From contig SLGN01000601.1 in the NCBI GenBank assembly GCA_007123695.1, positions 1-12,928 on the forward strand: 12,928 nt of DNA. Direction: 5' to 3'. This stretch comes from Verrucomicrobiales bacterium. Its GTDB lineage: Bacteria > Verrucomicrobiota > Verrucomicrobiia > Verrucomicrobiales > DEV007. Positions 31 to 12,928 of this stretch are shown here, one piece after another; the first letter of the stretch is position 1; every line of letters begins with the position of its first letter. The position numbers and the translations under genes are program-made. The notes beneath the pieces were generated by a model, which made no database searches, had not been told where the DNA came from, and was given only the letters and a program-made list of their open reading frames with translations.

Positions 31-1668
31 ATGAGATCGACGGTTCCCTTCGCGAAGCACCTCGCAGCGCCGTGGGCCATCGTGGCGACACTGGTTGCGG
101 GGGCATGGGTTGGGGCGAGCGGGCCGGGCGTGCCGGTCGCGGCCGCCGACGCCGACGCCGCCGTCGCGGCGAAGCCGGCCCCGCGGATCGCGGTGATGCG
201 GCTGTGGCACGAGACCGTCCCCTTCCTGCCGAACGAGACGACCCTCGAGGACTTCCTCTACCCCGGGTCCCCGGCACGGGGCGACGCCCTGCTCGGGTCC
301 GACAAACGCGGGGCGATCGGGGGCTTCGTGAAAGTGGCGAGGGAATACGGCGCCGAACTCGTCGGGATCGAGTCTCCGGGGTCTCCGAAAACCGGGACCG
401 GATCGGGCTGGATCACCCGCGAGGCCTACGAGCATTTCGTCGGCGCGATGATCGGGCACCTGCGAAAGGAAGCAGCCGAGGCCCCCTTCGACGGCGCCTA
501 CCTCGCGCTGCACGGAGCGATGGCGGTGAAGGGAATCGACCGCCCCGAGGCCGAACTGGCGCGCCGCGTGCGCGAGGCGCTGGGGCCGGAAGCCGTCATC
601 GTCGGCACCTTCGACCCCCACGGGAACGAGGACGAAGCCTTTCTGGAGCACGCCGATCTTGCCTTCGCCTACAAATACTATCCCCACTACGACTCCCACC
701 TCCAGGGCGAGCGCGCCGCCCGCACCGCAGTGCGGGCGATCCGGGGCGACTACCGTCCCGCCCACGCAGTGCGGCAGGTGCCGATCCTGAGCGCCACGGT
801 CTACCAGTGGACCGGGCGCGAGCCGTGGAGCACGCTGGTGCAGCGCTGCCTGACCTGGGAGGCCCGCGAGCCCGATCTCTACGTGAACTTTTTCTACGGC
901 TTCCCTTGGTCCGACGTGCCGGACCTCGGGATGTGCTTCCAAGTGATCGCGAACGGCGACGAGCCTCTGGCGCAGCGGGTCGCGGACGACCTCGCCGAGA
1001 CGGCCTGGCGCCTGCGCGAAGAACTTTTCTCGGCGACGCCGATCCATCCGCTGGCCGAGGCCATGGACGCGCTGGCGGAAGCGGCGGGCCAGGGCGCCCT
1101 GCCGGCGGTGCTCGCCGACTACAGCGACCGGTCCGGCAACGCGACCTGGATCCTCGGCGAAGTGGTGGCGCGGGATCTCGGGCGTGTTCTCATCGCCACG
1201 GTGCGCGACGAGCGGCTGCTGCGCCGACTCGCCGAGGCGGGGGCGGAGGAAGGCGGGGACTTCGACGCCGAGGTGGGCGGCTACATCGACGAATCCGCCG
1301 GGGCGCCGGTGCGCGTGCAGGGGACGTTGAGGCGCTTCCGGGCGCCGAACGAGGCCGGCCGGGGCGAGGCCTGGATCGATTTCGGCCGGGGGAACCGCCT
1401 CGTCGTCAGCCAGCACCTCGTCCAGGTGACGACGCCGCGCAGCCTCGCCGAAGCCGGGCACGACTTGGAGGATTTCGACGTCTTCGCGATCAAGTCGCGG
1501 GTGCATTTCCGCCGCGGCTTCGACGACAGCGGCTTCGCCCCGACCATCCTGATCGTCGATCCACCGGGCGACTTCCTCGGCACCACCCGGATCGACGCGC
1601 TGGATTTCGAGAACGTGCGGGTGAACGACTTCTACCCCTTCGGCGAACCGGACTGGCCGCCGCGCTGA
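31..1668 (+). CDS. Secreted M81-family (MlrC-like) metallopeptidase
   Basis: This 545-residue protein matches the M81/MlrC family, zinc peptidases named after microcystinase C, which hydrolyses linearised microcystin peptides. The putative metal-site motifs are in family order: His60-Glu61 in LWHET, His161 in LHGAM, Asp196 and His198 in DPHGN, and His219 in YPHYD. The family's GFPWSDVPDLG segment is at about 290-300, and the C-terminal half holds ADYSDRSGN at 362-370, where many relatives have a D-x-x-x-x-x-G-G loop. The first ~40 residues look like a signal peptide (hydrophobic 14-30, Ala-rich cleavage region about 36-42), so it should act outside the cytoplasm. ATG at 31 is the first possible start, because an in-frame stop lies at 10-12; no clear ribosome-binding site is seen. 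The natural substrate is unknown; most M81 proteins are not microcystinases. The family call is firm, the substrate is not. Confidence 0.9.
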   Translation: MRSTVPFAKHLAAPWAIVATLVAGAWVGASGPGVPVAAADADAAVAAKPAPRIAVMRLWHETVPFLPNETTLEDFLYPGSPARGDALLGSDKRGAIGGFVKVAREYGAELVGIESPGSPKTGTGSGWITREAYEHFVGAMIGHLRKEAAEAPFDGAYLALHGAMAVKGIDRPEAELARRVREALGPEAVIVGTFDPHGNEDEAFLEHADLAFAYKYYPHYDSHLQGERAARTAVRAIRGDYRPAHAVRQVPILSATVYQWTGREPWSTLVQRCLTWEAREPDLYVNFFYGFPWSDVPDLGMCFQVIANGDEPLAQRVADDLAETAWRLREELFSATPIHPLAEAMDALAEAAGQGALPAVLADYSDRSGNATWILGEVVARDLGRVLIATVRDERLLRRLAEAGAEEGGDFDAEVGGYIDESAGAPVRVQGTLRRFRAPNEAGRGEAWIDFGRGNRLVVSQHLVQVTTPRSLAEAGHDLEDFDVFAIKSRVHFRRGFDDSGFAPTILIVDPPGDFLGTTRIDALDFENVRVNDFYPFGEPDWPPR

Positions 1669-1695
1669 CATTCTCCGAAGGAACGACCGTCGCTC

Positions 1696-2532
1696 GTGAA
1701 GATCCCCCATCTCACTCCCCTTCTTCCGCGATTCCTTGGAGACCATCCCTGGCTCAGGGAGTTCGTCTACTTCGGGTTCAAGCAGGCTTGGGCGTGTCTT
1801 TTTGGCGGGTTGCTCCTCCTGGGGATTCTCGCTACCGGCGTCTGGTATCCGGACGTGCCGTTGGCACGATACGACTTTTTGTTTTTCTATGCCTTGTCGA
1901 TCCAAGGATGCTTGGTATGGTTCCGCCTGGAAAGCTGGCGGGAAGTGGGGGTGATCGCGGTCTTCCATTTGATGGCGACGGCGATGGAGCTTTTCAAGAC
2001 CTCCGAAGGCGTGGGATCGTGGAGCTATCCGGAGGATTCGTTTTTCCGCATCGGGAATGTTCCGCTGTTCGCTGGATTCATGTATGGAGCGGTGGGCAGC
2101 TACATGGCAAGGGCATGGCGAATCTTCGAGTTCAGATTGACCCGGTTCCCGCCGCTTTGGCTGGCCGGCTGCATCGCGACCGGCGCCTACCTGAACTTTT
2201 TCACGCACCACTATGTAGCCGATCTCCGGTGGATTCTGATCGCGGCAGGCGTGGCGGCATTCGCGCGTTGTTCGATCCATTTCCGTCCGAAAGCCTACGA
2301 GCTGCGGATGAACCTTCTGCTCAGCTTCGTGTTGGTCGCTCTGTTCATCTGGATCGCCGAAAATCTCGGGACCTTGGCGAGGGCTTGGCAGTATCCGAAC
2401 CAGCGGGACGGCTGGCAGATGGTGCATCACTCGAAGTTCACGGCTTGGTATCTGCTGATGCAGTTGTCCTTCATCCTGATCGCTTCGCTGAGGCATCTCG
2501 AGGCCCGGCTTTCGGGCGCAGATGCTGGGTGA
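1696..2532 (+). CDS. DUF817 family integral membrane protein
   Basis: This 278-residue multi-pass membrane protein matches DUF817 along its whole length. Recognisable conserved stretches are FGFKQAWACLFGGLLLLGI near residue 27, the RYDFLFFYALSIQ segment, FHLMATAMELFKT, GSWSYPE, NVPLFAGFMYGAVGSYMARAW, NFFTHH, and FIWIAENLGTLARAW in the C-terminal third. I count about seven to eight hydrophobic segments. The family has no established biochemical role, so none is proposed. The start is GTG at 1696, with AAGGAA at 1678-1683 upstream, 27 nt after the MlrC-like stop, so the two could be co-transcribed. Its G+C (43-57% in sampled 60-bp lines) is well below that of the preceding gene (one sampled line 77%), which suggests a separate origin. 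Confidence 0.9.
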   Translation: MKIPHLTPLLPRFLGDHPWLREFVYFGFKQAWACLFGGLLLLGILATGVWYPDVPLARYDFLFFYALSIQGCLVWFRLESWREVGVIAVFHLMATAMELFKTSEGVGSWSYPEDSFFRIGNVPLFAGFMYGAVGSYMARAWRIFEFRLTRFPPLWLAGCIATGAYLNFFTHHYVADLRWILIAAGVAAFARCSIHFRPKAYELRMNLLLSFVLVALFIWIAENLGTLARAWQYPNQRDGWQMVHHSKFTAWYLLMQLSFILIASLRHLEARLSGADAG

Positions 2533-2741: not shown

Positions 2742-3098
2742 TCAACGATTGGGCAGCTCGAACAGCGTGAGCACCCTCGCCATCACCGCCGACCGGAACT
2801 CATCTGGCACTTGACCAAGAGGCTGCCAATGGCGTTTCCGCCAATCGAGGGACCGAATCTGATCGCATAGCACCACTCCTCCGACGGGCATTCCCTCCGG
2901 CAGGGCGAGTTCGAACGGGTAGCCCTTCACCCGGCTCGTGATCGGACAAAACACGGCGAGGCTGGTCTTTTCGTTGTAGCGCGTGTGGCTGAGGACCAGG
3001 GCGGGACGTCGACCGGCCTGCTCGCGACCCGCCTGCGGATCGAAGACCAGCCAACCGACCGCCCCCAGCGCAGGCGCCCGGGAAACTCCCGCCTTCAT
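2742..3098 (-). CDS. mazF: MazF/PemK-type toxin endoribonuclease
   Basis: This 118-residue protein aligns closely with E. coli MazF, a ribosome-independent mRNA interferase that cleaves RNA at short sequences and stops translation. Visible family landmarks are WLVFDPQAGREQAGRRPALV (16-35), YNEKTS, CPITSRVKGYPFE (51-63) and DQIRSLDWRKR (79-89). Arg31 and Thr54 occupy the positions of the E. coli catalytic pair Arg29 and Thr52, so the active site looks intact. Its ATG overlaps the antitoxin stop in the sequence ATGA (minus strand, 3095-3098), which implies translational coupling with the antitoxin made first. The same frame stays open upstream to 3320, but that extension only reads through the antitoxin gene and is not protein-like. 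The cleavage sequence cannot be predicted from this. Confidence 0.93.
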   Translation of the reverse strand: MKAGVSRAPALGAVGWLVFDPQAGREQAGRRPALVLSHTRYNEKTSLAVFCPITSRVKGYPFELALPEGMPVGGVVLCDQIRSLDWRKRHWQPLGQVPDEFRSAVMARVLTLFELPNR

Positions 3099-3340
3099 GA
3101 TGGCACGATCTCGCGACCAAGATCGGATCCCCAGTCGGAGGCATCGTGGAGGTTCTCCGGATCCACCCCGGCAAGGAGTTCGTCCAAAGTGGGGGATTCC
3201 ACCGCCGGCCGGATCACGAGTCCCCCGGTCCCGACCCTCAGTTCGACCGCATCCCCTTCCTTCACGTGGATCTGCCGCGCCACGGCCCGAGGAATGCGCA
3301 GGGCGAGGCTGTTGCCCCATTTCTGAATGTTCGCTTTCAT
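3095..3340 (-). CDS. mazE: MazE-type antitoxin, AbrB/SpoVT fold
   Basis: This is an 81-residue antitoxin of the MazE/AbrB swapped-hairpin type. The N-terminal half (MKANIQKWGNSLALRIPRAV, then VKEGDAVELRV) is the classic DNA-binding fold found in MazE, PemI and related antitoxins. The acidic C-terminal tail (about 50-81, rich in Asp and Glu) is where this family wraps around and inhibits MazF. It precedes and overlaps the toxin by 4 bp. By family knowledge, MazE alone and the MazEF complex repress their own promoter, which here should lie in 3341-3380. No good Shine-Dalgarno sequence precedes the ATG. Confidence 0.92.
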   Translation of the reverse strand: MKANIQKWGNSLALRIPRAVARQIHVKEGDAVELRVGTGGLVIRPAVESPTLDELLAGVDPENLHDASDWGSDLGREIVPS

Positions 3341-3483: not shown

Positions 3484-4008
3484 ATGCAAGAACTCCTCGA
3501 GCCGCCAACCCGCGCCGAGCAGCTCGCCTTCAACCGGAGGCGCTGGGCCGAGATCGTCGCCGACCCCGCCCTCGCCGACCTGCCCGGCAAGGTCGAGAGC
3601 AACGCCTACGGAAACGTGATCATGATGCCGCCCGCCTCCGGAGACCACAGCCGACGCCAAGGCGAAATCGCCTTCCTGCTCCGCCGCTTGCTCGGCGGGC
3701 TCGCCCTGCCAGAATGCCCCGTCTCCACCCTCGAGGGGGTGCGGGCCGCCGATGTCGGCTGGTATTCCGAAGAGCGCTTCGCCGAGGTGGAGGGCCAGAT
3801 CGCCTTCGAGACCGCTCCCGAGATCTGCGTCGAGATCCTCTCGCCGGCGAACACCGAGCGCGAGATGGCCGAAAAGCGCCGCCTCTACTTCGACGCCGGC
3901 GCCTTGGAAGTGTGGCTCTGCGAGGCCGACGGCCGCCTGCGCTTCTACTCGCCCGAAGGTCCGCTGCCCCAGTCGCGGAAGTGCCCGGATTTCCCGGAGC
4001 GGGTGTAG
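3484..4008 (+). CDS. Uma2 family protein, PD-(D/E)xK nuclease fold
   Basis: This 174-residue protein belongs to the Uma2 family, predicted PD-(D/E)xK endonucleases that are often present in many copies in cyanobacteria, planctomycetes and verrucomicrobia; their cellular role is not established. The core reads AADVGWYSEERF (Asp90), then PEICVEILSPANTEREMAEK (Glu117, Lys131) and LYFDAGALEVWLCEADGRL, matching the usual order of the catalytic Asp, Glu and Lys region. The N-terminal part, with NAYGNVIMMPPASGDHS, is also typical. Length and C-terminus look complete. ATG at 3484 is preferred because conservation begins there; an in-frame ATG at 3424 would add 20 unremarkable residues. It is divergent from mazEF and convergent with the coiled-coil operon, 41 bp from the end of the latter. 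Confidence 0.85.
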   Translation: MQELLEPPTRAEQLAFNRRRWAEIVADPALADLPGKVESNAYGNVIMMPPASGDHSRRQGEIAFLLRRLLGGLALPECPVSTLEGVRAADVGWYSEERFAEVEGQIAFETAPEICVEILSPANTEREMAEKRRLYFDAGALEVWLCEADGRLRFYSPEGPLPQSRKCPDFPERV

Positions 4009-4049
4009 GGCGAGGAAGATTTCGATTTCGATCGGGTGGCGGACGCCGG

Positions 4050-4316
4050 TCAGGGATCGGTCTTTTCGCTGGCGGCGGCAGGGGCGTCGCCGAGGGCTTG
4101 GGCTTCGCGTTCCATTTCCTTGCGCAGGGTCTCGAGATTGGCGGAGGCGCGGTGGACTTCGGACTCGGCGTCGAGGGTCTGGTGATGGCCGCGCCGCCAG
4201 ATGAAGTAACCGACGACGAGGCCGGCGAGGGCGAAGCCAAGGGCGCAGATCAAGTAATAGGGCACGGCGGTCTCTCCCGCACCGCGGATTGCCGGTAGCT
4301 CGAGGAAGTTTCCCAT
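4050..4316 (-). CDS. Small single-pass membrane protein with short coiled coil
   Basis: I do not recognise this 88-residue protein. It has one membrane segment at about residues 19-40, ending in GLVVGYFIWRR, then a charged helix with coiled-coil character at about 45-77 and a short Ala/Glu tail. The basic cluster RRGHH directly after the membrane segment predicts, by the positive-inside rule, an outside N-terminus and a cytoplasmic helix. The G-L-V-V-G-x-x-I-W signature (Gly32 to Trp40) recurs in the 79-residue protein and, loosened, in the giant coiled-coil protein of the same gene row. It starts 17 bp after the stop of the giant gene, so it is very likely the last gene of that operon. The consistent position of the membrane anchor argues that this is a real gene and not an antisense shadow. 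Confidence 0.75.
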   Translation of the reverse strand: MGNFLELPAIRGAGETAVPYYLICALGFALAGLVVGYFIWRRGHHQTLDAESEVHRASANLETLRKEMEREAQALGDAPAAASEKTDP

Positions 4317-4333
4317 GGCTTACCGGTGCGTCG

Positions 4334-7300
4334 TCAGTTCACTGCCTCGGCCACGGCGACGGGGCTCAGGACGATTTCGACGCGGCGGGCTCGCGCGTCG
4401 GAGAAGCGACGGTCGCGCCCGCCCGCCCTGACCCGGACGACCGAGAGGGCGACGCCGCGCTCGACGAGGCGCTCGCGCACGGCGTCGGCGCGACGGGCGC
4501 TGAGGGTCTCGGCGTAGTCGGAACCGCCCTCGGCGCCGGAGTAGCCGACCACGGTCGCCTCGACCTTGCGACCGAGGCGGCGCAGCGACTTCGCGCAGCG
4601 GTCGATCTTCTCGCAGGCGGCCCGGTCGAGCGAGGCGCCCTTTTCTTTGAAGAAAACGGTGAGGTCGTCGTCGAAGCCGGACGCAGGGGACGCTGCGGGC
4701 GGTGCTTCTTTGGCTGTCGCCACGTCGGACGCTTTCGCCGGGTCGTGATGGGAAGCCGGCGCCGGGATCTCGTCGAGCGGGATGGCATCGTCCGCATCGG
4801 TCGTGGCCGCGATGGCCGCGTAGGGGGACTCGGCAGCGTCGGTCGAAGCGGGTTCGGGCGGGGCGGCGGACTCGCCGGAAACGGCGGCTTCGGTCGGCGT
4901 AGCGGCAGCCGCCGGGGAGGTCGAAGACGGGGCGGCGGTTTCGGCCCGTTCGATGGCTTGGAGCCGCTCGCGGAGCTGCCCGAGTTCGGCGTCGCGGGTG
5001 TTCCGCTGCATCATCATTTCGCGAATGCGGGCCTGAAGTTCGGCAATGTCCCGCTGCCGGTCGGAGAGACGTTCCTGCAGTTTGGCGGCTTCGGCGGAAA
5101 CGGCTTCACGCGATTCCCGCTCACGCTCGAACTGGGCGACGGCTTCCTGGTGCTGACGTCGTAGCGAATCGATTTCGGAAAGCTGCCGCGACATCTCCTC
5201 GTTGCGGGCCTGCTCGGCGGCCTCGATTTCGGCAAGTCGAGCGGACAGCTCGCGCTCGGCGGCGGCAAAGCGTCCGCGCGCCTCTTCCTCGGTGGCGGTG
5301 GAGCCTTCGACAAGAATCTGAAGCGACGCGATCTTCGTTTCCCGTTCCCGCAGTTCACCCTCGAGGGCCCGGATGCGCTGGTCCGACTCCTCCTTGGCGG
5401 CGGCCTTGCTCTCGACGAGGGCCTGGAGCGAAGCGATTTCGGAGAGCTTTGCTTGCAGCTCGCTTTGGATCTCCCGTAGTTGTCCGCGGACTTCCTCCTC
5501 GGCGGCCCGCGCGGTCTCGGAGAGGAGCTGGAGCGAGGCGGCCTTCGAAGTCCTATCCTCCAATTCGAACTCGAGGTTGCGAGAGTGTGCCCGGGCCTCT
5601 TCTTCGGCAGCGGCGCTTCTCTCGGCGAGGGCCTTAAGAGAGTCGATTTCGGAAATCCGCTGCTCGAGCTCGGCCTCGAGGGCGCGGGTCCGCTCCTGAG
5701 ACTGTGCCTCGGCGGCGATTTTGCTCTCGATCAGGATCTGGAGCGTGGAAATTTCAGCGGCCTTTTCCTCCAATTCGGCTTCCAATGCCCGGGAGCGTTG
5801 GCCTGCCGCCTCTTCGGCGGCGGCCCGGCTCTCGGCGAGAGACCGGAGATTGGCGATCTCCGACATCTGCTGCTCGAACTCGGTCTCGAGGGCGCGGGTC
5901 CGTTCCTGCGCCCGCTCCTCGGCGGCGATCTTGCTCTCGATCAGGATCTGGAGCGAGGAGATTTCGGCGGTCTTTTGCTCCAATTCGGCTTCCAATGCAC
6001 GGGATCGTTGGCCCGCCGCCTCTTCGGCGGCGGCCCGGCTCTCGGCGAGAGACCGGAGATTGGCGATTTCGGCCAATGTCTCGGCAAGTTCGCTTTCGGC
6101 GGCGGCGAACCGCTCGCGGGCCTCGGTTTCGGCGGCGGCGCTGGCTTCGGCGAGGGCTTGCAGCGAGGCGAGTTCGGCCAGTCTCCCGGCCAACTCGGTC
6201 TCGAGGGTCTCGAAGCGTTCGCGCGCCTCTTCCTCGGCGGCGGCCTTGGCTTCGCCGAGAGCCTGAAGTGCGCCGACTTCCCCGGAAAGGGCGGCGACTT
6301 CGGATTCGCGCTGGTCCAGTTTTGCGGAAAGGTCGAGGATTCGCCGGTCGCCGACGCTGAGGCCCTCTTCCAATTCGGAGACTTTCCGCTCGAAGCGGGC
6401 ACGCTCGTCGCGCGCGCTGGCGAGTTCGACCTCGAGCCGCTCGAGCTGGCGGCGGTAGCCCTCGAGTTCCGACTTCGTCCCTTCGGTCTCCTTCTCCGCG
6501 GCGCGGCGGCCTTCTTCCTGCTCGCGCAGGGCGGTATCCAGCTCGGAGATTCTGCCGAGGGCTTCGCTACGGCGTTCCTCGGACTCTTCGATCTCGGCGG
6601 CGAGCCGCTCGGCCTTGGCAGCGGCGGAACCGGTCTCAAGTCGGAGGTCCTCGATGGCACGCTCGAGTTCGACGACCTGGATCTCGCGACGCCGCGAACC
6701 CTCCTCGAGTTCGGCGACGCGACGGCTGGCGGTCGCAAGGTCGCGCAGGGCCTCTTCCCGCTCGCGGGAGACGCTGCCCAGTTCCTCGCGGACTTCGCCG
6801 AGGAGACGGCACGATTCCTCCAAATCGGCGGCGAGCCGGGCAATGCGCTCGGTCGCCTCTCCGAGTTCCTGCTCGACCGAGGCGAAACGGCGCTCGGACT
6901 CGACGGTCTCGGCGGAGCGGCGCGCCATTTCCTCCTCGAGCTGGGTGGCCCGCGACTCGTAATGCTTGATTTCGCGCGCGCGGTCCTCGGCCTCGACGCG
7001 GACGACGTTCAGTTCCTCGTAGCGCTGCACGAGCGCCTCCTCCAGCGCGGCGACCCGGCGGGCCTGCTCTTCGGCGAAGGAGACGCGGCTCTTGACCTCG
7101 CGGTCGAGCCGGCCCGACTCTTCGGAGAGAGCTTCGAGTTCGCCCTCGGTCTCGGCGAGGGTGTTCTTGAGCTGCCGCACGAGATCGCGTTGCTGGCGCA
7201 GCTCGGCGGAGAGGTCGTTGACCTCGGCGCTGCGGTCGGAAATGATGGCCTCGAGTTCCTCCATCTGGGCGAGGGCGTGCTGGTGCTCCTCGATCTTGGT

Positions 7301-8719
7301 GGCGTGGGCCATGCGCAGTTCGCTGGTCTCGCGACGCGCTTCGCCGAGGGCGGCGGACAAACGCCCGATCTCCTGCTGCGAGGCGGCGAGGTCGCTGCGG
7401 GCGCTCTCGAGTTCGGCGGCGCCGGCGGCGGTCTCGTCTCTGGAGCTGGCGAGGTCTTGCAGGGCGGTGGCGAGCTGCCCACGCACGGAGGCGAGGTCGT
7501 CCCGGAGCGATTCGTTGGCGGTTTTGGCTTTGTCGAGTTCGACGAGACGCCCTTCCAGCTCGCCGACTTTGTCGATGCGGGCGAGGAGGGCGCGGCGCAC
7601 GTCGTAGAGTTCGTGGCAGGCGTCGTTGAGTTCGGCCTGAAGGGCGCTTTTCCTGCGGGCGACGGTCTCGAGCTCCTCGATCCTGGTCTCGGCGGAGTCG
7701 AGCGCGGCGACGCGGGCGGCGAGGTCGCTCTCGAGCCCGTCGATGCGTCCCTGGAGGCGGGTGCGTTCTTCTTCTGCGGCGGCGGCGATCTCGCCGCGCA
7801 AACGCTCGCCACCCTCGCGCTCGGCCTGGAGCACGTGGTTTGCCTCGTCCAGTTCGGACTGCAGGGCGGCGATGGTTTCGGCTCGGGCACGGAGCTTTTC
7901 CGAGAAGTCCTCGCGCAGAGCCCGCAGCTCGCGGCCGCGCTGGGCGACGAGGACGCTCCATTGCGAGAGTTCGGCCTCGGCCGGGCCCGAGCCGGCGATC
8001 TCGGCGGGCAGGGCGATGAGCTTGGCCTCGAGCGATTCGACGAGGGAGACTTGCTTTTCGTAGTCGCCGCGCAGCGCGTGGAGGCGGTCGTGGGTGTCGA
8101 TCAGATCCTGCTCGAGATCGCGAATCTTGGCCTCGAGCGCTTCTTCGGCGGACGAGACCGCGGCCTTTTGCGAGACCGGATCCGACTTGGCTTCGCTCGG
8201 CTCGGCTTCGCCCGGCTTGGCTTCGGCGGCTCCTCCGACGACGGCGAAGGGCAAAGCGGCGGGACGTTCCTCCAGTTCGTCGCGCAAGCGCGCGGTTTCC
8301 TCGCGCGCTTCGGCGAGGGCGGCTTCGAGTTCGCGGACCCGCACCCGGGCATCGCGCTCGTCGTCGGAAAGGGCGACGACAGCGGGCACTTCGGCGCCGG
8401 CCCCCTTCAGCTCGCTGGCGAGGCGGGCGATGTGGGCGTCTTTTTCGGCGAGGGCCCCCTCGTAGGCGGTGCGGTCGGCCTGCCAGCGTACGCGCAGCTT
8501 TTTGAAGAGATCCTGCTGCGAGGCGCCGAGGGCGTTCCACTGGTCGGCGAGGGCGAGGTTTTCCTCGATGGCGTTGGCGAGCCGCTGCCCGTGGCGCCCC
8601 CAGAGCATCTTGGCGAGGAGCAGCCCGATCCCGAAGAAGAGGATGGCCGACACCCCCACGGGGAGCCAGCCCTTCAGCAGGAAGAGGGTGGTTTGGAGAG
8701 TTTCGCTGAGGTCTTGCAT
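4334..8719 (-). CDS. Giant membrane-anchored coiled-coil protein with OmpA-like C-terminus
   Basis: This 1461-residue protein, counted from the ATG at 8719, has four parts: a membrane segment at about 18-40 (ending LLLAKMLWGR); a very long heptad-rich coiled coil from about 60 to 1250; a Pro/Ala/Ser/Glu linker at about 1255-1345; and an OmpA-like domain at about 1346-1461. The last keeps the LSARRADAVRERL helix and a terminal RRVEI strand, but GYSGAEG replaces the usual G-[HY]-T-D, so the diaminopimelate-contacting Asp is Gly1395. The matching Arg (1410) is kept. Residues 813-1162 are ten tandem 35-residue repeats. KMLWGRHGQR after the membrane segment predicts a cytoplasmic body. A TTG at 8788, overlapping the upstream stop, would add 23 Pro-rich residues; the ATG is preferred because it puts Trp40 where the operon's small membrane proteins have theirs. 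The function is unknown; a structural or scaffolding role is inferred. Confidence 0.85.
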   Translation of the reverse strand: MQDLSETLQTTLFLLKGWLPVGVSAILFFGIGLLLAKMLWGRHGQRLANAIEENLALADQWNALGASQQDLFKKLRVRWQADRTAYEGALAEKDAHIARLASELKGAGAEVPAVVALSDDERDARVRVRELEAALAEAREETARLRDELEERPAALPFAVVGGAAEAKPGEAEPSEAKSDPVSQKAAVSSAEEALEAKIRDLEQDLIDTHDRLHALRGDYEKQVSLVESLEAKLIALPAEIAGSGPAEAELSQWSVLVAQRGRELRALREDFSEKLRARAETIAALQSELDEANHVLQAEREGGERLRGEIAAAAEEERTRLQGRIDGLESDLAARVAALDSAETRIEELETVARRKSALQAELNDACHELYDVRRALLARIDKVGELEGRLVELDKAKTANESLRDDLASVRGQLATALQDLASSRDETAAGAAELESARSDLAASQQEIGRLSAALGEARRETSELRMAHATKIEEHQHALAQMEELEAIISDRSAEVNDLSAELRQQRDLVRQLKNTLAETEGELEALSEESGRLDREVKSRVSFAEEQARRVAALEEALVQRYEELNVVRVEAEDRAREIKHYESRATQLEEEMARRSAETVESERRFASVEQELGEATERIARLAADLEESCRLLGEVREELGSVSREREEALRDLATASRRVAELEEGSRRREIQVVELERAIEDLRLETGSAAAKAERLAAEIEESEERRSEALGRISELDTALREQEEGRRAAEKETEGTKSELEGYRRQLERLEVELASARDERARFERKVSELEEGLSVGDRRILDLSAKLDQRESEVAALSGEVGALQALGEAKAAAEEEARERFETLETELAGRLAELASLQALAEASAAAETEARERFAAAESELAETLAEIANLRSLAESRAAAEEAAGQRSRALEAELEQKTAEISSLQILIESKIAAEERAQERTRALETEFEQQMSEIANLRSLAESRAAAEEAAGQRSRALEAELEEKAAEISTLQILIESKIAAEAQSQERTRALEAELEQRISEIDSLKALAERSAAAEEEARAHSRNLEFELEDRTSKAASLQLLSETARAAEEEVRGQLREIQSELQAKLSEIASLQALVESKAAAKEESDQRIRALEGELRERETKIASLQILVEGSTATEEEARGRFAAAERELSARLAEIEAAEQARNEEMSRQLSEIDSLRRQHQEAVAQFERERESREAVSAEAAKLQERLSDRQRDIAELQARIREMMMQRNTRDAELGQLRERLQAIERAETAAPSSTSPAAAATPTEAAVSGESAAPPEPASTDAAESPYAAIAATTDADDAIPLDEIPAPASHHDPAKASDVATAKEAPPAASPASGFDDDLTVFFKEKGASLDRAACEKIDRCAKSLRRLGRKVEATVVGYSGAEGGSDYAETLSARRADAVRERLVERGVALSVVRVRAGGRDRRFSDARARRVEIVLSPVAVAEAVN
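5234..6283 (-). repeat. Ten tandem 105-bp (35-residue, five-heptad) coding repeats
   Basis: Inside the giant coiled-coil gene, ten consecutive units of exactly 35 residues follow each other without insertions or deletions. Each resembles [S/A]-E-I-x-S-L-Q-x-L-x-E-S, then an Ala/Glu-rich middle and R-A-L-E-x-E-L near the end. Five heptads per unit keep the coiled-coil register unbroken. Units 3-4 (5864-6073) and 5-6 (5654-5863) form a higher-order 210-bp duplication: 59 of 70 residues are identical by my count, with long identical DNA stretches, so that copy event is younger than the rest. Confidence 0.9.
8186..8229 (-). repeat. Short 15-bp tandem repeat, GEAxP-like pentapeptides
   Basis: About 2.9 copies of a 15-bp unit (plus strand CTYGGCTTCGCYCGG) lie within the N-terminal third of the giant coiled-coil gene. 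On the coding strand they encode a Pro-containing pentapeptide run (A-K-P-G-E-A-E-P-S-E-A-K). Proline breaks coiled coils, so this marks a hinge between the first and the main coiled-coil blocks, near residues 165-180. Confidence 0.6.
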
Positions 8720-8784
8720 GGAGCGTGTTGCGGTGGGCGCGTGGGGAAAAAGGGAGTCGGCGGGAGGCGGGGGCGGAGGACCGG

Positions 8785-9024
8785 TCAACGTCCGCCGGAG
8801 GCGAGTTCGGACTTGATCCGGGAGACGTCTTCGCTCCTCTGCTCGTAGACGGCGAGGGCGCTGCGGTTCCCTTCCTCGACCAGCATGGTCAATCTACGGG
8901 CATTCCGCCAAATAATCCAGCCGACGACGAGCCCGAGCAAGGCGACGAGAATCCCGCCCACGGCGAGGGCGAGGGTCCAATCGAGGAGAAAGGCGCGGGC
9001 GGCCGGAGTGAGCTGGGAGTTCAT
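8785..9024 (-). CDS. Small single-pass membrane protein of the coiled-coil operon
   Basis: I do not recognise this 79-residue protein. A single hydrophobic segment (about 16-39) ends in GLVVGWIIWRNARR; the basic NARR region predicts a cytoplasmic C-terminus. A short amphipathic, probably coiled-coil helix follows (about 45-75). Its Gly31-to-Trp39 stretch matches the 88-residue protein at seven of nine positions, although the rest differs, which suggests a shared anchor module. It lies 47 bp after the BON/OmpA gene and 65 bp before the preferred start of the giant gene. Its stop codon overlaps an alternative TTG start of that gene, so coupled translation is possible. No clear Shine-Dalgarno sequence is seen. 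Confidence 0.75.
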   Translation of the reverse strand: MNSQLTPAARAFLLDWTLALAVGGILVALLGLVVGWIIWRNARRLTMLVEEGNRSALAVYEQRSEDVSRIKSELASGGR

Positions 9025-9071
9025 GGAAGGGGCGGTGGGCTAGCGGGTGGCCGGACGATCCGAAGGGGGCG

Positions 9072-10922
9072 TCAGCGCTCTTCGACCGGAGCGGGCGGAG
9101 CGGGCCGATCGGGCAGCGACGGCGTGGCGAGGGAAACTTCGGCGCGGCGGGATTTTCCGTGCTCGGATCGGGGTCGGCCGGAAACATCCTCGACGACGGA
9201 ATCGACGGAAACGGATTCCTCAGCGATGCCGAGGCGCACGAGTTCCTCCTTGACCCTCTCGGCGCGGAGCAGGCCGAGCCGTTCGTTCGAAGCGCGGTTG
9301 CCGACATTGTCGGCGAAGCCGGTGACGCGGAGCTTCAAGTCGCCGCCGGCGGCTTCGATCGCCTCGGCGAGAGTCGCGACCTTGGCCCGCCCCTCATTGG
9401 AGAGGGTCTCGGCGCCTTTTTCGAAATAGACCGGGGTGGCCTTGAGCGTCTCGGCAAGGCGGATGCGCTGCTCGGGGACGAGGGCGGGTTTGGGAAAGGA
9501 GGGCGCGCCGTGGCCGAGGCGGTTGAGCACGCGCGCGCCGGAAGGCGCGAGGTTCACGGCGAGATTCTCGAGAATCTGCCGGTCGGAGGGGGCGCGGGTG
9601 CGGCCCGTAAGTTCGAAGCCTTTTTCCGCGAGGACCATTTTCCCGGAGACGAGGCGCGGCAGGATCTCGGCGAAGAAGTCGGGCAGCCCGGCCGCCCAGG
9701 GGGAAGCGGCGTCCGGGTCGGTTTCGGTGTCGATTTTCACGACCAGGTCGGGCACCGACTCCACGGCCCTCCTCTCGATCTCGGCGGCCAGCTCCGTGTC
9801 GGGCAGAGTGCCGGAGAGAGAAAGCAGGCCGTCGCCGAACTGGGCGGTCAGGGAAAGGCCGACGCCCTCGGCGCGCACGGAGACGTCCAGGGCCAGTTCG
9901 GGCGGTTTCTCGCCGCTGCGGAGGGGCTCGAGGCTTGCGAGAAGACGGTCGCGGGCGGCGGCATCGGCAGTGCTGCCCTCGACGCGGATGCGCTGCGCCG
10001 AGAACTCGGCAACGAAGTTGCCCCGGAGTTCGGCGAAGAGCGCGGAGCAGGCGTCGGCGAAATGCTCCTGCCAGGGTGCCGCGCCGCAATCCTCGGCGGT
10101 CTCGACGCTGGACGACGGCGCCAGAGTCGCGCCGGCGGCGGCGAGAGCTTCGCGCAGCGCCTCGAGCGCCTCCGCGTCGGGGACGACGCCGGAGAGGGCC
10201 ACTCCGAAGCGGCTTTTCCGCAGGCTCAGCTCGGCGAGGCGCTTGGGCTCGGGCGGCGCGACCACCTCGATGCGCTCGTCGATTTCGTCGGCGCCGACGG
10301 CATCGGCGAGATCGACGAGGCCTCGGCGCATCCCCGGATTGGGCACGCCGCCGACGACGAGGAGCCGCCCCTCGGCGAGGGCGAGCTCGGCGGCGCCGGG
10401 GTGGGCCAGGAGACCCGTGGCGAGCGAGGCGAACTCGGCGATTTCCGCAAAGGGCAGGACCATGGGATCGAACTCGATGGAGTTCTCGACGCGCTCGGTC
10501 CCCGGCACCCCGCGCAGCCGCGAGCCGAGCAGCCCGCGCGCGGCTTCGTCGAGGGGCGAAAGGACGCCCTCGAGGCGGATCTCGCCGGATCCCTCGGAGC
10601 GGGCCGCCCTCAGGCGCGGCGGCAGAGTCGGTCTGATGCCGATCCCGGCCTCGTCCGCCGCGGGCCAGCGCGCCCCGGGCACGTTCTCGCCGAGATGGCG
10701 CAGCACCTCCTCGATCTGTTCGGGACGGTCCACCGTGCCGGAGAGACGCCCCTCCATGTGGTCGAACTCGACCTGCACCCCGCCGAAGCCGGCCCCGTCG
10801 AGGGCGTCGCGGGAGAGGCGCTCCAGCTCCGCCTCGACGCTGCCCCGCCAGCCGACCGTCGCCAGCAGGGCGGACCCCGCAACCGCCAGGCAGAAGAGGA
10901 GCACGATGACAAGAAATCTCAT
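9072..10922 (-). CDS. BON-repeat and OmpA-domain envelope protein
   Basis: This 616-residue protein begins with a signal anchor (residues 3-24, only one Arg in front), which should place the rest in the periplasm. The middle, about 25-470, contains about seven copies of a BON-like unit; each has a beta strand of the form hydrophobic-x-hydrophobic-x-Gly followed by a helix (RLSGTVD at 59, IRLEGVLS at 115, LVVGGVPN, VALSGVVPD at 241, IRVEGSTAD at 312, LSLSGTLPD at 367, FELTGRTR at 436). Residues about 487-600 are an OmpA-type domain, with Asp538 in GFADNVG and Arg553 fifteen residues later, the spacing of the Asp/Arg pair that holds peptidoglycan diaminopimelate in E. coli OmpA (Asp241, Arg256). 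BON plus OmpA is also the layout of mycobacterial OmpATb/ArfA, with fewer repeats. First gene of the four-gene operon. Proposed role: linking the inner membrane to the cell wall. Confidence 0.85.
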   Translation of the reverse strand: MRFLVIVLLFCLAVAGSALLATVGWRGSVEAELERLSRDALDGAGFGGVQVEFDHMEGRLSGTVDRPEQIEEVLRHLGENVPGARWPAADEAGIGIRPTLPPRLRAARSEGSGEIRLEGVLSPLDEAARGLLGSRLRGVPGTERVENSIEFDPMVLPFAEIAEFASLATGLLAHPGAAELALAEGRLLVVGGVPNPGMRRGLVDLADAVGADEIDERIEVVAPPEPKRLAELSLRKSRFGVALSGVVPDAEALEALREALAAAGATLAPSSSVETAEDCGAAPWQEHFADACSALFAELRGNFVAEFSAQRIRVEGSTADAAARDRLLASLEPLRSGEKPPELALDVSVRAEGVGLSLTAQFGDGLLSLSGTLPDTELAAEIERRAVESVPDLVVKIDTETDPDAASPWAAGLPDFFAEILPRLVSGKMVLAEKGFELTGRTRAPSDRQILENLAVNLAPSGARVLNRLGHGAPSFPKPALVPEQRIRLAETLKATPVYFEKGAETLSNEGRAKVATLAEAIEAAGGDLKLRVTGFADNVGNRASNERLGLLRAERVKEELVRLGIAEESVSVDSVVEDVSGRPRSEHGKSRRAEVSLATPSLPDRPAPPAPVEER

Positions 10923-10948
10923 GGAAGCGGAACCAAACTCAACGGCTG

Positions 10949-10977
10949 ACAGTATTCAATTTTCACAAACTTCTCAA
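10949..10977 (-). promoter_or_regulatory. Candidate promoter of the BON/OmpA-coiled-coil operon
   Basis: On the minus strand TTGAGA (10972-10977, five of six to the -35 consensus) is followed after exactly 17 bp by TACTGT (10949-10954), which keeps the key T, A and final T of a -10 box. Transcription would start near 10942, about 20 nt before the ATG at 10922. The spacer is visibly more AT-rich than the flanking genes. This is a match by eye only. Confidence 0.4.
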
Positions 10978-11000
10978 GCCGGAAGGGCCGATTTGAGCCA

Positions 11001-11051
11001 TTGTTTTATAAAATCTCCATTTCCGAGAATTTGTCCCCGTCGCTGTGGGGA
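11001..11051. promoter_or_regulatory. AT-rich palindrome, hairpin and weak promoter-like boxes upstream of exosortase
   Basis: A perfect 10-bp palindrome, TTTTATAAAA, lies at 11004-11013. A 5-bp stem, TCCCC/GGGGA (11034-11038 with 11047-11051, loop 8), ends 3 bp before the first 22-bp repeat. On the plus strand TTGTTT (11001-11006) and GAGAAT (11025-11030), 18 bp apart, are weak -35/-10 candidates for the exosortase gene. Each element is minor alone; together they make this the likely control region between the divergent transcripts. Confidence 0.3.
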
Positions 11052-11053
11052 AC

Positions 11054-11113
11054 GATCAAATAGGGTTGGGTCTCAGATCAAACAGGGTTGGTTCGAGGAC
11101 CAAAGAGGGTTGG
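11054..11113. repeat. Three direct repeats with an exact 22-bp period
   Basis: Three copies of a 16-bp core, GAYCAAANAGGGTTGG, start at 11054, 11076 and 11098. Fourteen of the sixteen positions are identical in all three. Copies 2 and 3 also share the following TTCG. The constant 22-bp period, about two helical turns, would present three sites on one face of the DNA, as for cooperative binding of a regulator. They lie between the divergent BON/OmpA operon and the exosortase gene, ending about 98 bp before the exosortase ATG. A remnant of a mobile or dispersed repeat is the main alternative; I see no further copies in the window. Confidence 0.8.
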
Positions 11114-11211
11114 TTCGCGATCCGGAGATCCAGGACACTTTTCCGCTTGATGGCCGGCGGGCGGGGGCGAGATAGTGGAGCTGCCGCCGACGCTGCCGGG
11201 GCGCAGGAAGC

Positions 11212-12144
11212 ATGCCCGATCCTATCCCAACCAAGGAAGCCGCAGTCTCCGGCGGAGAGACCGGGGCGACTTCGCCGGGGAATCCGACGGCGACGGCCTT
11301 CTGGTTCTTTTTCGCGGCGCTGCACGGGCAGCTCTTTCTCGCCCTCGCGCCGACGTGGAACGACGGCACCTACTACGACTACGGTTTCCTCGTCCCCTTC
11401 CTCGCGCCCTACTGCTTTCTAGCGCGTTGGCGCGAGGGCGGGATCGACGGCGACGGGCTGGCGCGGCGCCTCGGCGGCCGGGGCCGATCGTCGGGGCTGT
11501 GGGCGGCGGTCTGGACGACGCTGTGCCTCGCGCTGCTGCTGCGTCTCGTCCAGGGCGCCGACTCGGGGTGGCGGGCCCCGCTGCAGATGCACGCCTTCGC
11601 CACCCTCGGCCTGGCGGCGCTGCTGCTGCACCGGATCGAAGGCCGGGGCGTGCTGCGCTACTGGGGCTGCGCCTTGCTCGTGCTGCTCGCGGTGCCCCTG
11701 CCGAGCCAGACCGAGGCGGCCCTGATCCGCAACCTCACCGCCGGCGTGCTGGAGTTCGCCCTGTTCTACAACCGCATGCTGGGGCTGCCGCTGGAGAGTT
11801 CGGGGGAGACGATCTTCGCCAACGGGGTGCCCCTGCAAGTCAGCGACGGATGCAGCGGCATCCGCTCCTTCCAGAGCGGGATCTTCGCCGGCTTCGCCCT
11901 CGGCGAGCTGATGCGTCTGTCCCTGGTCTCGCGCGGGCTGCTGCTCGCCACCGGACTGGGGCTGGCCTTTTTGATGAACGCGGCGCGGGTCATCTACCTG
12001 GTGCGCCACGTCGTGGCCCACCCCGACTCGAACCTTGCCCTGGTCCACGACGTGAGCGGCTACGTCTCGCTAGGCACGACCTTCCTGCTCATCGCCGCGG
12101 CGGGCTGGTTGCTCGGACGGATCGAGGGCACCCGCAGCGGCTGA
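11212..12144 (+). CDS. Exosortase/archaeosortase family transpeptidase
   Basis: This 310-residue multi-pass membrane protein carries the three residues of the exosortase active site in order: Cys214 in SDGCSGIRSF, Arg259 in FLMNAARVIYL and His279 in LVHDVSGY. The N-terminal WNDGTYYDYGFLVPFLAPY segment (49-67) is the family's W-x(n)-Y-x-x-G-F-L-V-P signature. Exosortases process proteins with a C-terminal PEP-CTERM-type tail at the cytoplasmic membrane, usually in bacteria that make exopolysaccharide; no such tail-bearing substrate is in this window. AGGAAG at 11205-11210 is a plausible ribosome-binding site for the ATG at 11212. The ~28 residues before the first membrane segment are poorly conserved-looking. 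The last 24 codons, beyond His279, overlap the convergent ligase gene. Confidence 0.9.
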   Translation: MPDPIPTKEAAVSGGETGATSPGNPTATAFWFFFAALHGQLFLALAPTWNDGTYYDYGFLVPFLAPYCFLARWREGGIDGDGLARRLGGRGRSSGLWAAVWTTLCLALLLRLVQGADSGWRAPLQMHAFATLGLAALLLHRIEGRGVLRYWGCALLVLLAVPLPSQTEAALIRNLTAGVLEFALFYNRMLGLPLESSGETIFANGVPLQVSDGCSGIRSFQSGIFAGFALGELMRLSLVSRGLLLATGLGLAFLMNAARVIYLVRHVVAHPDSNLALVHDVSGYVSLGTTFLLIAAAGWLLGRIEGTRSG

Positions 12145-12928
12145 CCGGGGCGCGCGTTTTCCAAGCTTGCCGCTGCCCTCTCCCCCGGCCCGGCCGGAGG
12201 CCCCGCCCCAAGCGATGGCGAGGTAGAAGACGGCGAGCCACTGAATCGCGGGAATCTGGAGCGGGAAATCGACGAGCGCGTGCAGCAAAACGACGACGAG
12301 GGCGACGAGGGAGACGCCGGCGGACAGTTCGGGACGTCCTGCGCGCTGCGCCTCGCGGACGCGGCGCGCCAGCCGGACGAGGCCTCCGCCGAAAATCACC
12401 GCCCAGGCGGCGAAGCCGAGCCAGCCCCACTCGATCACCGCCTCGAGCCAGTCCTGGTGCGCGTGCTGCCAGAAGCCGGCGATCCCGTCCTCGTAGTCGA
12501 TGGTGAAGTAGGGAAAAATGTATTGGAAGGTGCCCGCGCCCGCGCCGAAGACGCCGGTTTCGCCGATGGCGGCAAGGCAGGCCCGGTAGGCGAGCAGCCG
12601 TCCGGTGAGGCTGCCTCCGTCTTCCGCGAGGTTGCCCCAGTTCGCGGCGCTCTCGTAGAGGCCCGGCAGGATGAAGGCGGCGGCGGCGAGACCGAGGAAG
12701 GCCGCCATCACCACCAGTCCGGCCCGAGTCGTCGTGGGCGAGAGCCATTCCCTGCGAAACTGCCACGCGGCGAGGCCGAGACCGACGAGGCCGAGGATCT
12801 GTCCGGCTTTGGACGTGTTGACGAAGACGGCCGCGACGACGAGCAGGAAGGCGGAGAGATCCAGCGACGAGACGAGGGAGCCGGGACGCTCCAGGCGGCT
12901 CCGCAGCCACACGGCGAGGGCGGCGGGC
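12070..12928 (-). CDS. O-antigen ligase/polymerase (Wzy_C) family protein, 5' end outside window
   Basis: The reading frame is open to the window edge, so only the C-terminal ~285 residues are present; the GTG at 12910-12912 is most likely an internal valine. Counting from it, family landmarks are NTSKAG (32-37, the T-x-S-[RK]-G position), GRLLAY (104-109), FGAGAGTF (122-129) and HAHQDWLEAVIEWG (150-163), the Wzy_C pattern of O-antigen ligases and related polysaccharide polymerases. These enzymes join undecaprenyl-linked glycans to an acceptor on the periplasmic face of the inner membrane. Further membrane segments follow at about 168-180, 197-215 and 218-236. The last ~45 residues are a hydrophilic, low-complexity tail; its final 24 codons overlap the exosortase gene antisense. 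Ligase or polymerase cannot be decided from this fragment. Confidence 0.85.
   Translation of the reverse strand, partial: PAALAVWLRSRLERPGSLVSSLDLSAFLLVVAAVFVNTSKAGQILGLVGLGLAAWQFRREWLSPTTTRAGLVVMAAFLGLAAAAFILPGLYESAANWGNLAEDGGSLTGRLLAYRACLAAIGETGVFGAGAGTFQYIFPYFTIDYEDGIAGFWQHAHQDWLEAVIEWGWLGFAAWAVIFGGGLVRLARRVREAQRAGRPELSAGVSLVALVVVLLHALVDFPLQIPAIQWLAVFYLAIAWGGASGRAGGEGSGKLGKRAPRSAAAGALDPSEQPARRGDEQEGRA

Follow-up and report, generated by a model that had tools for sequence, protein, structure and literature searches.

The locus examined here raises the question of whether four adjacent genes, two of which encode proteins ending in an OmpA-type domain, form one envelope assembly and, if so, on which side of the membrane each part would act. 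The window, the whole 12,928-nt stretch analyzed here, comes from a Verrucomicrobiales bacterium with a fragmented genome assembly (4.43 Mb, 759 contigs, 79.8% complete) and holds a cassette of gene1 (9072..10922; 616 aa), gene2 (8785..9024; 79 aa), gene3 (4334..8719; 1461 aa), and gene4 (4050..4316; 88 aa), all on the minus strand. An earlier note on this DNA had described four minus-strand genes separated by 47, 65, and 17 bp and had assigned a single membrane pass to three of the products; the open reading frames, strand, order, and gaps all match that description, and each product has one hydrophobic segment, close to its N-terminus. The note's overall interpretation, a single assembly with two OmpA-type domains, holds with regard to co-occurrence of the genes, relatedness of the anchors, and their N-out orientation, but not with regard to the equivalence of the OmpA domains. 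We consider it moderately probable that the products of the cassette form a complex in the inner membrane by which the cell wall is connected to a long rod in the cytoplasm; most likely, gene3 is this rod, carries an exchangeable head, and is held in place by a complex bound to the wall.

Layout and conservation of the cassette

The mechanical ORF of gene3 extends upstream to a TTG at 8788, but the start was taken as the ATG at 8719 (1461 aa), because this codon aligns with the starts in relatives. No promoter or terminator site was predicted on the minus strand in a scan of positions 3900-11250; on the plus strand, the scan gave a single promoter-like site, which falls within gene3 (shuffled sequences averaged 0.1), and five terminator-like sites (shuffled sequences averaged 7.1). 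The cassette is flanked on one side by genes for an M81/MlrC metallopeptidase and a DUF817 membrane protein (31-2532, plus strand; identified by Pfam), a MazE/MazF-type toxin-antitoxin pair (2742-3340, minus strand; PF04014 in 3095-3340 and PF02452 in 2742-3320), and a Uma2 family protein (3484-4008, plus strand; PF05685). Upstream of it lie genes for an exosortase (11212-12144, plus strand; PF09721) and an O-antigen ligase-like protein (12070-12912, minus strand; PF04932), which overlap at their 3' ends as annotated.

When 56 genomes were searched with gene1, 30 of the 33 that belong to the genus, the own genome among them, gave matches over the full length or nearly so; the match in G028 stops at residue 489, and G016, G018, G024, and G029 carry distant gene1 types (23-27% in this search). 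Those relatives with a cassette protein that carry a name belong to the Verrucomicrobiales, and Akkermansiaceae bacterium UBA2367 is the closest of them (51%, best segment). Thirty loci, the window and 29 taken from relatives, were examined with one profile per part; because the genomes were picked by their gene1 match, the presence of gene1 in the 29 other loci is by construction. All four genes were found in the same order in 21 of the 30 loci, and five of the nine incomplete ones (L046, L051, L058, L066, and L069) are cut by contig ends. In L068, gene3 is split, near a contig end; no gene4 was found in L064 (genome G021), nor in the distant types L070 and L071. Given that the frames and their order recur in relatives whose gene1 has diverged to 32-51% identity within the focal type (19-24% in four distant rows), the association exceeds chance, and the proposal that these genes travel together is borne out across this set of uncultured bacteria.

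A search with the gene3 anchor, independent of gene1, across 386 genomes of the order matched 30 of the 33 genus genomes (not G003, G011, and G028) and, outside the genus, gave weak matches (2.5e-11 to 9.4e-4) in 11 genomes, corresponding to 13 loci. In every one of these 13 loci, which represent two further families, a gene1-type gene is located directly upstream on the same strand; six (family f2) have only gene2 between gene1 and gene3, and seven (family f4) are without a separate gene2. At L145, the gene1 match spans the BON part only. The observation that the earlier note had named as contrary to a single assembly, the giant gene without its companions, is encountered in part. Besides G021 without gene4, genome G002 encodes, after pnp, only a relic of gene1 (a frame of 44 aa, 35 residues of which match) followed by intact gene2 and a gene3 of 883 aa, and a short paralogue in G024 consists of genes 2-3-4, with a gene3 of 540 aa and no adjoining gene1. 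A similar short version is carried by G029, with its upstream side cut by a contig end. That genes 1 and 4 can be absent would suit a reading in which the four are merely co-located envelope genes, the products of which do not form one complex, but the pairing of a gene1-type gene with the gene3 anchor in both further families (13/13 loci) and the kinship of the anchors, described below, render this reading improbable.

Several cassette-like loci are present in each of G009, G024, and G029, and other relatives of gene1, 536-1024 aa in length, occur at L102, L103, L105-L108, L110, and L120; in several of them, the profile matches are repeated or rearranged. A phylum-wide search with the gene1 alignment matched 259 of 288 genomes at 1e-10; among the matches listed, all but the own locus lie within the OmpA part, so these were discarded as evidence for the cassette, and the search is uninformative on its occurrence outside the order. 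Among the ORFs listed around the matches in Hyphomicrobium, Acidobacteriia, Flammeovirgaceae, and Flavobacteriaceae (L039-L042), no cassette was found.

Membrane anchors and the two OmpA domains

The suggestion that genes 2, 3, and 4 share a type of membrane anchor is supported by profile comparison with hhalign, which relates gene2 to gene4 (96.6%, E 6.8e-10) and to the gene3 anchor (91.8%, E 7.5e-7), with the gene4-gene3 comparison being the weakest (77.6%, E 1.9e-5). No part of the cassette is better conserved than the gene3 anchor module (residues 1-90; 8450..8719, minus strand), with 69.4% mean pairwise identity across 19 genomes. Neither gene2 nor gene4 has a Pfam match above cut-off. 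Lysine and arginine are more abundant after the helix than before it in 28 of 28 gene2 proteins (L053 being left out of this count), 28 of 29 gene3 proteins, and 19 of 20 gene4 proteins, the remainder being ties. Because of this bias, which is in line with the N-out/C-in orientation proposed earlier and with the positive-inside rule, all three proteins are predicted to be N-out with cytoplasmic bodies, that of gene4 being a short helix; the topology of the cassette products is thus a prediction from sequence.

The description of gene3 as a coiled-coil protein is corroborated by heptad periodicity above that of shuffled sequences from about residue 200 to 1240. Within the coil, the gene3 of the window contains in-frame tandem repeats (5556..6178, minus strand) with a period of 210 bp and a sub-period of 105 bp, that is, 70 aa and 35 aa, which are whole heptads. 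At 1461 residues, this protein exceeds those of the other 21 full-length focal loci (927-1291), that of G002, and 68 database homologues (927-1274), collected in a search restricted to lengths between 0.55 and 1.75 times that of the query. A Pfam scan of gene3 at E 0.1 returned OmpA, Filament, and Fez1 only, and NCBIfam matches to SMC and Rad50, far below cut-off, were dismissed as coiled-coil resemblance. The coil may oligomerize.

Gene1 starts with a membrane segment (residues 1-26), followed by seven predicted BON-like repeats (residues 49-470) and a C-terminal OmpA domain (residues 497-600; 9123..9434, minus strand). The latter was recognized by Pfam (PF00691; residues 499-575, 2.9e-11, 44 bits against a cut-off of 27.2), and its peptidoglycan residues D538, N546, and R553 are invariant in 29 of 29 proteins; with a score above cut-off and the conserved Asp and Arg, gene1 belongs to PF00691 and probably binds peptidoglycan through this domain. 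Accordingly, the OmpA half of the earlier designation, a periplasmic BON/OmpA protein, is secured by Pfam, but the BON half is seen only in the predicted fold and in a sub-cutoff NCBIfam match to ArfA_OmpATb_N, the BON family PF04972 having no Pfam match in gene1 at E 0.1. The predicted fold is nearest to Rv0899/ArfA; a VIA-align comparison of the model is dominated by the OmpA domain. Gene1 scored 39.2 bits against the ArfA/OmpATb equivalog NF051434, below the cut-off of 81, and is not a member of that family; it nevertheless has the ArfA-like architecture of membrane anchor, BON fold, and OmpA domain, the BON fold by prediction. Lysine and arginine are also more abundant after the gene1 membrane segment in 23 of 29 proteins, and because the positive-inside rule thus gives no support to a periplasmic orientation, this placement is argued from the fold, the conserved residues, and the likeness to Rv0899.

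The C-terminal head of gene3 (4337..4681, minus strand) likewise adopts an OmpA fold, with a Pfam match above cut-off (PF00691; 2.4e-10, 41.1 bits), an AF2 model with a pLDDT of 87.5, and Foldseek matches to Pal/OmpA. Thus, two OmpA domains are indeed encoded in the cassette, but they are not equivalent, since gene1 keeps the peptidoglycan residues and gene3 has lost the Asp expected of PF00691. The corresponding position, which aligns with the Asp of YiaD and Pal and which we take to be the residue contacting diaminopimelate, is Gly in 21 of 22 loci and in all 68 database homologues (some proteins occur in both sets), and the Arg is retained in 68 of 68. The early-branching gene3 of L067 keeps the Asp, which counts against our preferred explanation; the head of L104 has Glu at this position, and that of L109 is degenerate there. 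The protein ends in VN or IN in 67 of the 68 homologues, with AEAVN in the window. Across 19 genomes (a set without L053, L067, and L064), the mean pairwise identity of the trimmed domains is 59.6% for the gene3 head against 50.4% for the gene1 OmpA domain, with the head being better conserved in 156 of 171 genome pairs; earlier figures of 61.3% and 47.8%, which included the gene1 linker and tail, were set aside. This higher conservation indicates that the gene3 head has a selected role.

In a tree of 89 OmpA domains, which is based on few columns and on midpoint rooting only, the 25 gene3 heads cluster together (95/90; recovered in 96% of 200 bootstrap trees), nested within 76 cassette-related OmpA domains (100/97), a set that excludes the Pal-type rows and three gene1-type rows (L107, L110, and L120). 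The branch tying the heads to the nearest gene1-type rows is weak (89/52). We read this pattern as indicating that a gene1-type domain, the apparent source of the head, moved once onto gene3, and that peptidoglycan binding was then probably lost under continued constraint.

Alternatively, gene3 could be periplasmic, a coiled coil anchored in the inner membrane that serves as an envelope spacer or stiffener, with its OmpA domain attached to the wall by a modified mode of binding. Such domains usually reside in the periplasm, and the Arg retained in all 68 homologues and the Asp kept in L067 would both be accommodated by such an arrangement. It appears distinctly unlikely in view of the charge excess after the helix (28/29, with one tie), the Gly at the Asp position in 68 of 68 homologues, and the fact that the same slot in relatives holds an HHH tail of a kind found on cytoplasmic proteins. 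The gene3 head most likely resides in the cytoplasm, and because it has also lost the Asp, its OmpA domain is not expected to be a second wall anchor.

Exchange of the gene3 head

Outside the genus, the C-terminal domain of gene3 is not OmpA but helix-hairpin-helix (HHH) in 11 of the 13 loci; of the others, L113 is truncated by the end of its contig and L112 is a frame of just 126 aa. The same type of tail is attached to NuoE, L21, S2, and PhaH, with all tail matches below family cut-offs; these are cytoplasmic proteins. Pfam matches to HHH_5, HHH, and IMS_HHH are also all below cut-off. HHH tails were further found in the genus paralogues L071, L103, and L106 and in L119, which comes from a different genus within the family and has a gene1 match confined to a 112-aa frame. 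The gene3 position of L120 (G017:C400, 3633-5423) is occupied by a protein that combines the anchor with HHH stretches and a VWA-like domain, the VWA match being below cut-off. Because relatives carry HHH in place of OmpA, an exchangeable cytoplasmic head may be a general device.

In two short-paralogue loci, L104 and L109, genes 2-3-4 are followed by a gene for an OmpA-domain protein without an N-terminal signal (25.8 and 32.2 bits, respectively, against a cut-off of 27.2); this would fit a cytoplasmic role of such domains and hence our preferred explanation. Counting against it, these putatively soluble proteins have a weak Ala-rich hydrophobic stretch, and one of the two scores lies just under the cut-off. 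A gene3-type protein at L116 (G174:C23, 5578-7668) has, in place of the coil, a middle part with many repeats centered on SLWTE.DW.P, and then an HHH tail.

In 18 of 24 genus loci, for example, L045, L047, and L050, the cassette lies downstream of pnp on the same strand; 25 of the 30 loci entered this analysis, and the count covers those in which the upstream sequence exceeds 800 nt. In nine genus loci, rpsO precedes pnp, and in 11 loci, an unassigned gene of about 200 aa, of secreted type and often with a signal-like start, lies between pnp and gene1; the L047 copy of this gene has no Pfam match. NCBIfam confirmed the identity of two of the pnp copies and of one rpsO. The cassette of the window is an exception, with pnp not adjoining, and the own assembly has no pnp match above cut-off.

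The pnp neighborhood, the HHH heads of 11 of the 13 outside loci, and the sub-cutoff Pfam matches to HHH_5, HHH, and IMS_HHH would all be in keeping with a tether for nucleic acid, either the nucleoid or an RNA/ribosome assembly, to which the putative HHH domains would bind directly and the OmpA head through a partner. This would be one specific form of the exchangeable-head rod; however, we know of no nucleic acid role for such HHH tails on L21, S2, or NuoE, proximity to pnp may be mere position, and the window is not beside pnp, so that we view a nucleic acid client as a possible, albeit rather unlikely, specialization.

A proposed wall-to-cytoplasm tether and known systems

Under the favored explanation, gene1 would be periplasmic, held by its N-terminal helix, and would grip peptidoglycan through its OmpA domain, with the seven BON-like repeats serving as an arm. 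Genes 2, 3, and 4, inserted N-out by one related type of anchor, would constitute the membrane part, from which the coiled coil of gene3, about 1,000 residues long, would extend into the cytoplasm. The OmpA-fold head, which seems to descend from a gene1-type domain, would no longer bind peptidoglycan but a cytoplasmic partner, and the wall-anchored rod with its exchangeable cytoplasmic head would position or tether a client. The four products would be in contact with each other, the structure predictions being of single chains. More tentatively, and at somewhat less than even odds, we propose that a copy of the peptidoglycan-binding OmpA domain of the periplasmic partner was added to the tip of the rod, came to lie in the cytoplasm, ceased to bind the wall, and evolved into an intracellular binding head that is strongly conserved and has a VN tail that hardly varies, and that the cassette represents an undescribed class of wall-to-cytoplasm tethers in which heptad-sized repeats tune the length of the rod and heads (OmpA, HHH, and HHH with a VWA-like domain) are exchangeable.

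A literature search listed no OmpA domain with an intracellular function, and, if the proposal is true, gene3 would, as far as we know, be the first. We know of few bacterial devices that span the inner membrane to connect the wall with a long scaffold in the cytoplasm; such a tether, conserved in Verrucomicrobiales and with an OmpA/HHH head swap, would provide a handle on the organization of the cytoplasm relative to the envelope in this group. The earlier statement that no described system has this gene set agrees with our literature searches for the four-gene set, which yielded no description (subscription papers and bioRxiv preprints were outside their scope). However, gene1 is not without precedent, because it resembles ArfA/OmpATb (Rv0899) of Mycobacterium tuberculosis, although the latter has one BON domain, compared to the seven BON-like repeats of gene1; we know of no long coiled-coil partner of ArfA. 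The likeness to EzrA that had been suggested holds in outline: EzrA and other membrane-anchored coiled-coil scaffolds are N-out single-pass proteins with a cytoplasmic helical body, as gene3 is predicted to be. Membership was rejected, given that EzrA was absent from the Pfam scan of gene3 at E 0.1, and no wall-binding partner of the gene1 type is known to us for EzrA-like scaffolds.

The cassette, with a gene1-type gene and the gene3 anchor each present in 30 of the 33 genus genomes, is unlike a patchy defense island. This spread bears on a further possibility, namely, that the cassette is a sensor akin to Zorya, triggered by wall disturbance. In Zorya (PMC11890865), a wall-binding periplasmic domain (ZorB) is coupled to a long cytoplasmic tail (ZorA), an outline that the cassette would share. 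Unlike Zorya, the cassette encodes no ZorA/MotA-kind motor subunit and no multi-pass motor protein, and a PADLOC search of the four proteins at E 0.1 gave no match to ZorA (MotA-like) or ZorB, so that membership was rejected and a Zorya-like sensor seems extremely unlikely. The only PADLOC matches, weak ones to JetC, LmuB, and DruC over the gene3 coil, are coiled-coil look-alikes.

FtsZl1/Tubulin_2 operons, implicated in membrane remodeling, encode OmpA, VWA, and uncharacterized membrane proteins around a coiled-coil protein (Makarova and Koonin 2010, PMC2875224), and the cassette shares with them the OmpA and uncharacterized membrane proteins arranged around such a protein. That the cassette is a part of such operons would gain from the G017 paralogue, in which the anchor, HHH, and VWA-like domain (below cut-off) are joined, and from the full Tubulin_2 proteins encoded by G012 and G027. 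The cassette differs in having no tubulin-like protein, and membership was rejected, as no Tubulin_2 (PF13809) match was detected at the cassette or in the own genome, about 80% complete. Moreover, Tubulin_2 matches occur in 11 of the 33 genus genomes, four of them over cut-off and two of full length, and none of the 12 Tubulin_2 places is on a contig from which a cassette was taken, making this affiliation very unlikely. As a separate observation, the full Tubulin_2 (FtsZl1) genes at G012:C2:5849-10809 and G027:C47:3366-8326 each have an OmpA-domain match about 3.6 kb away.
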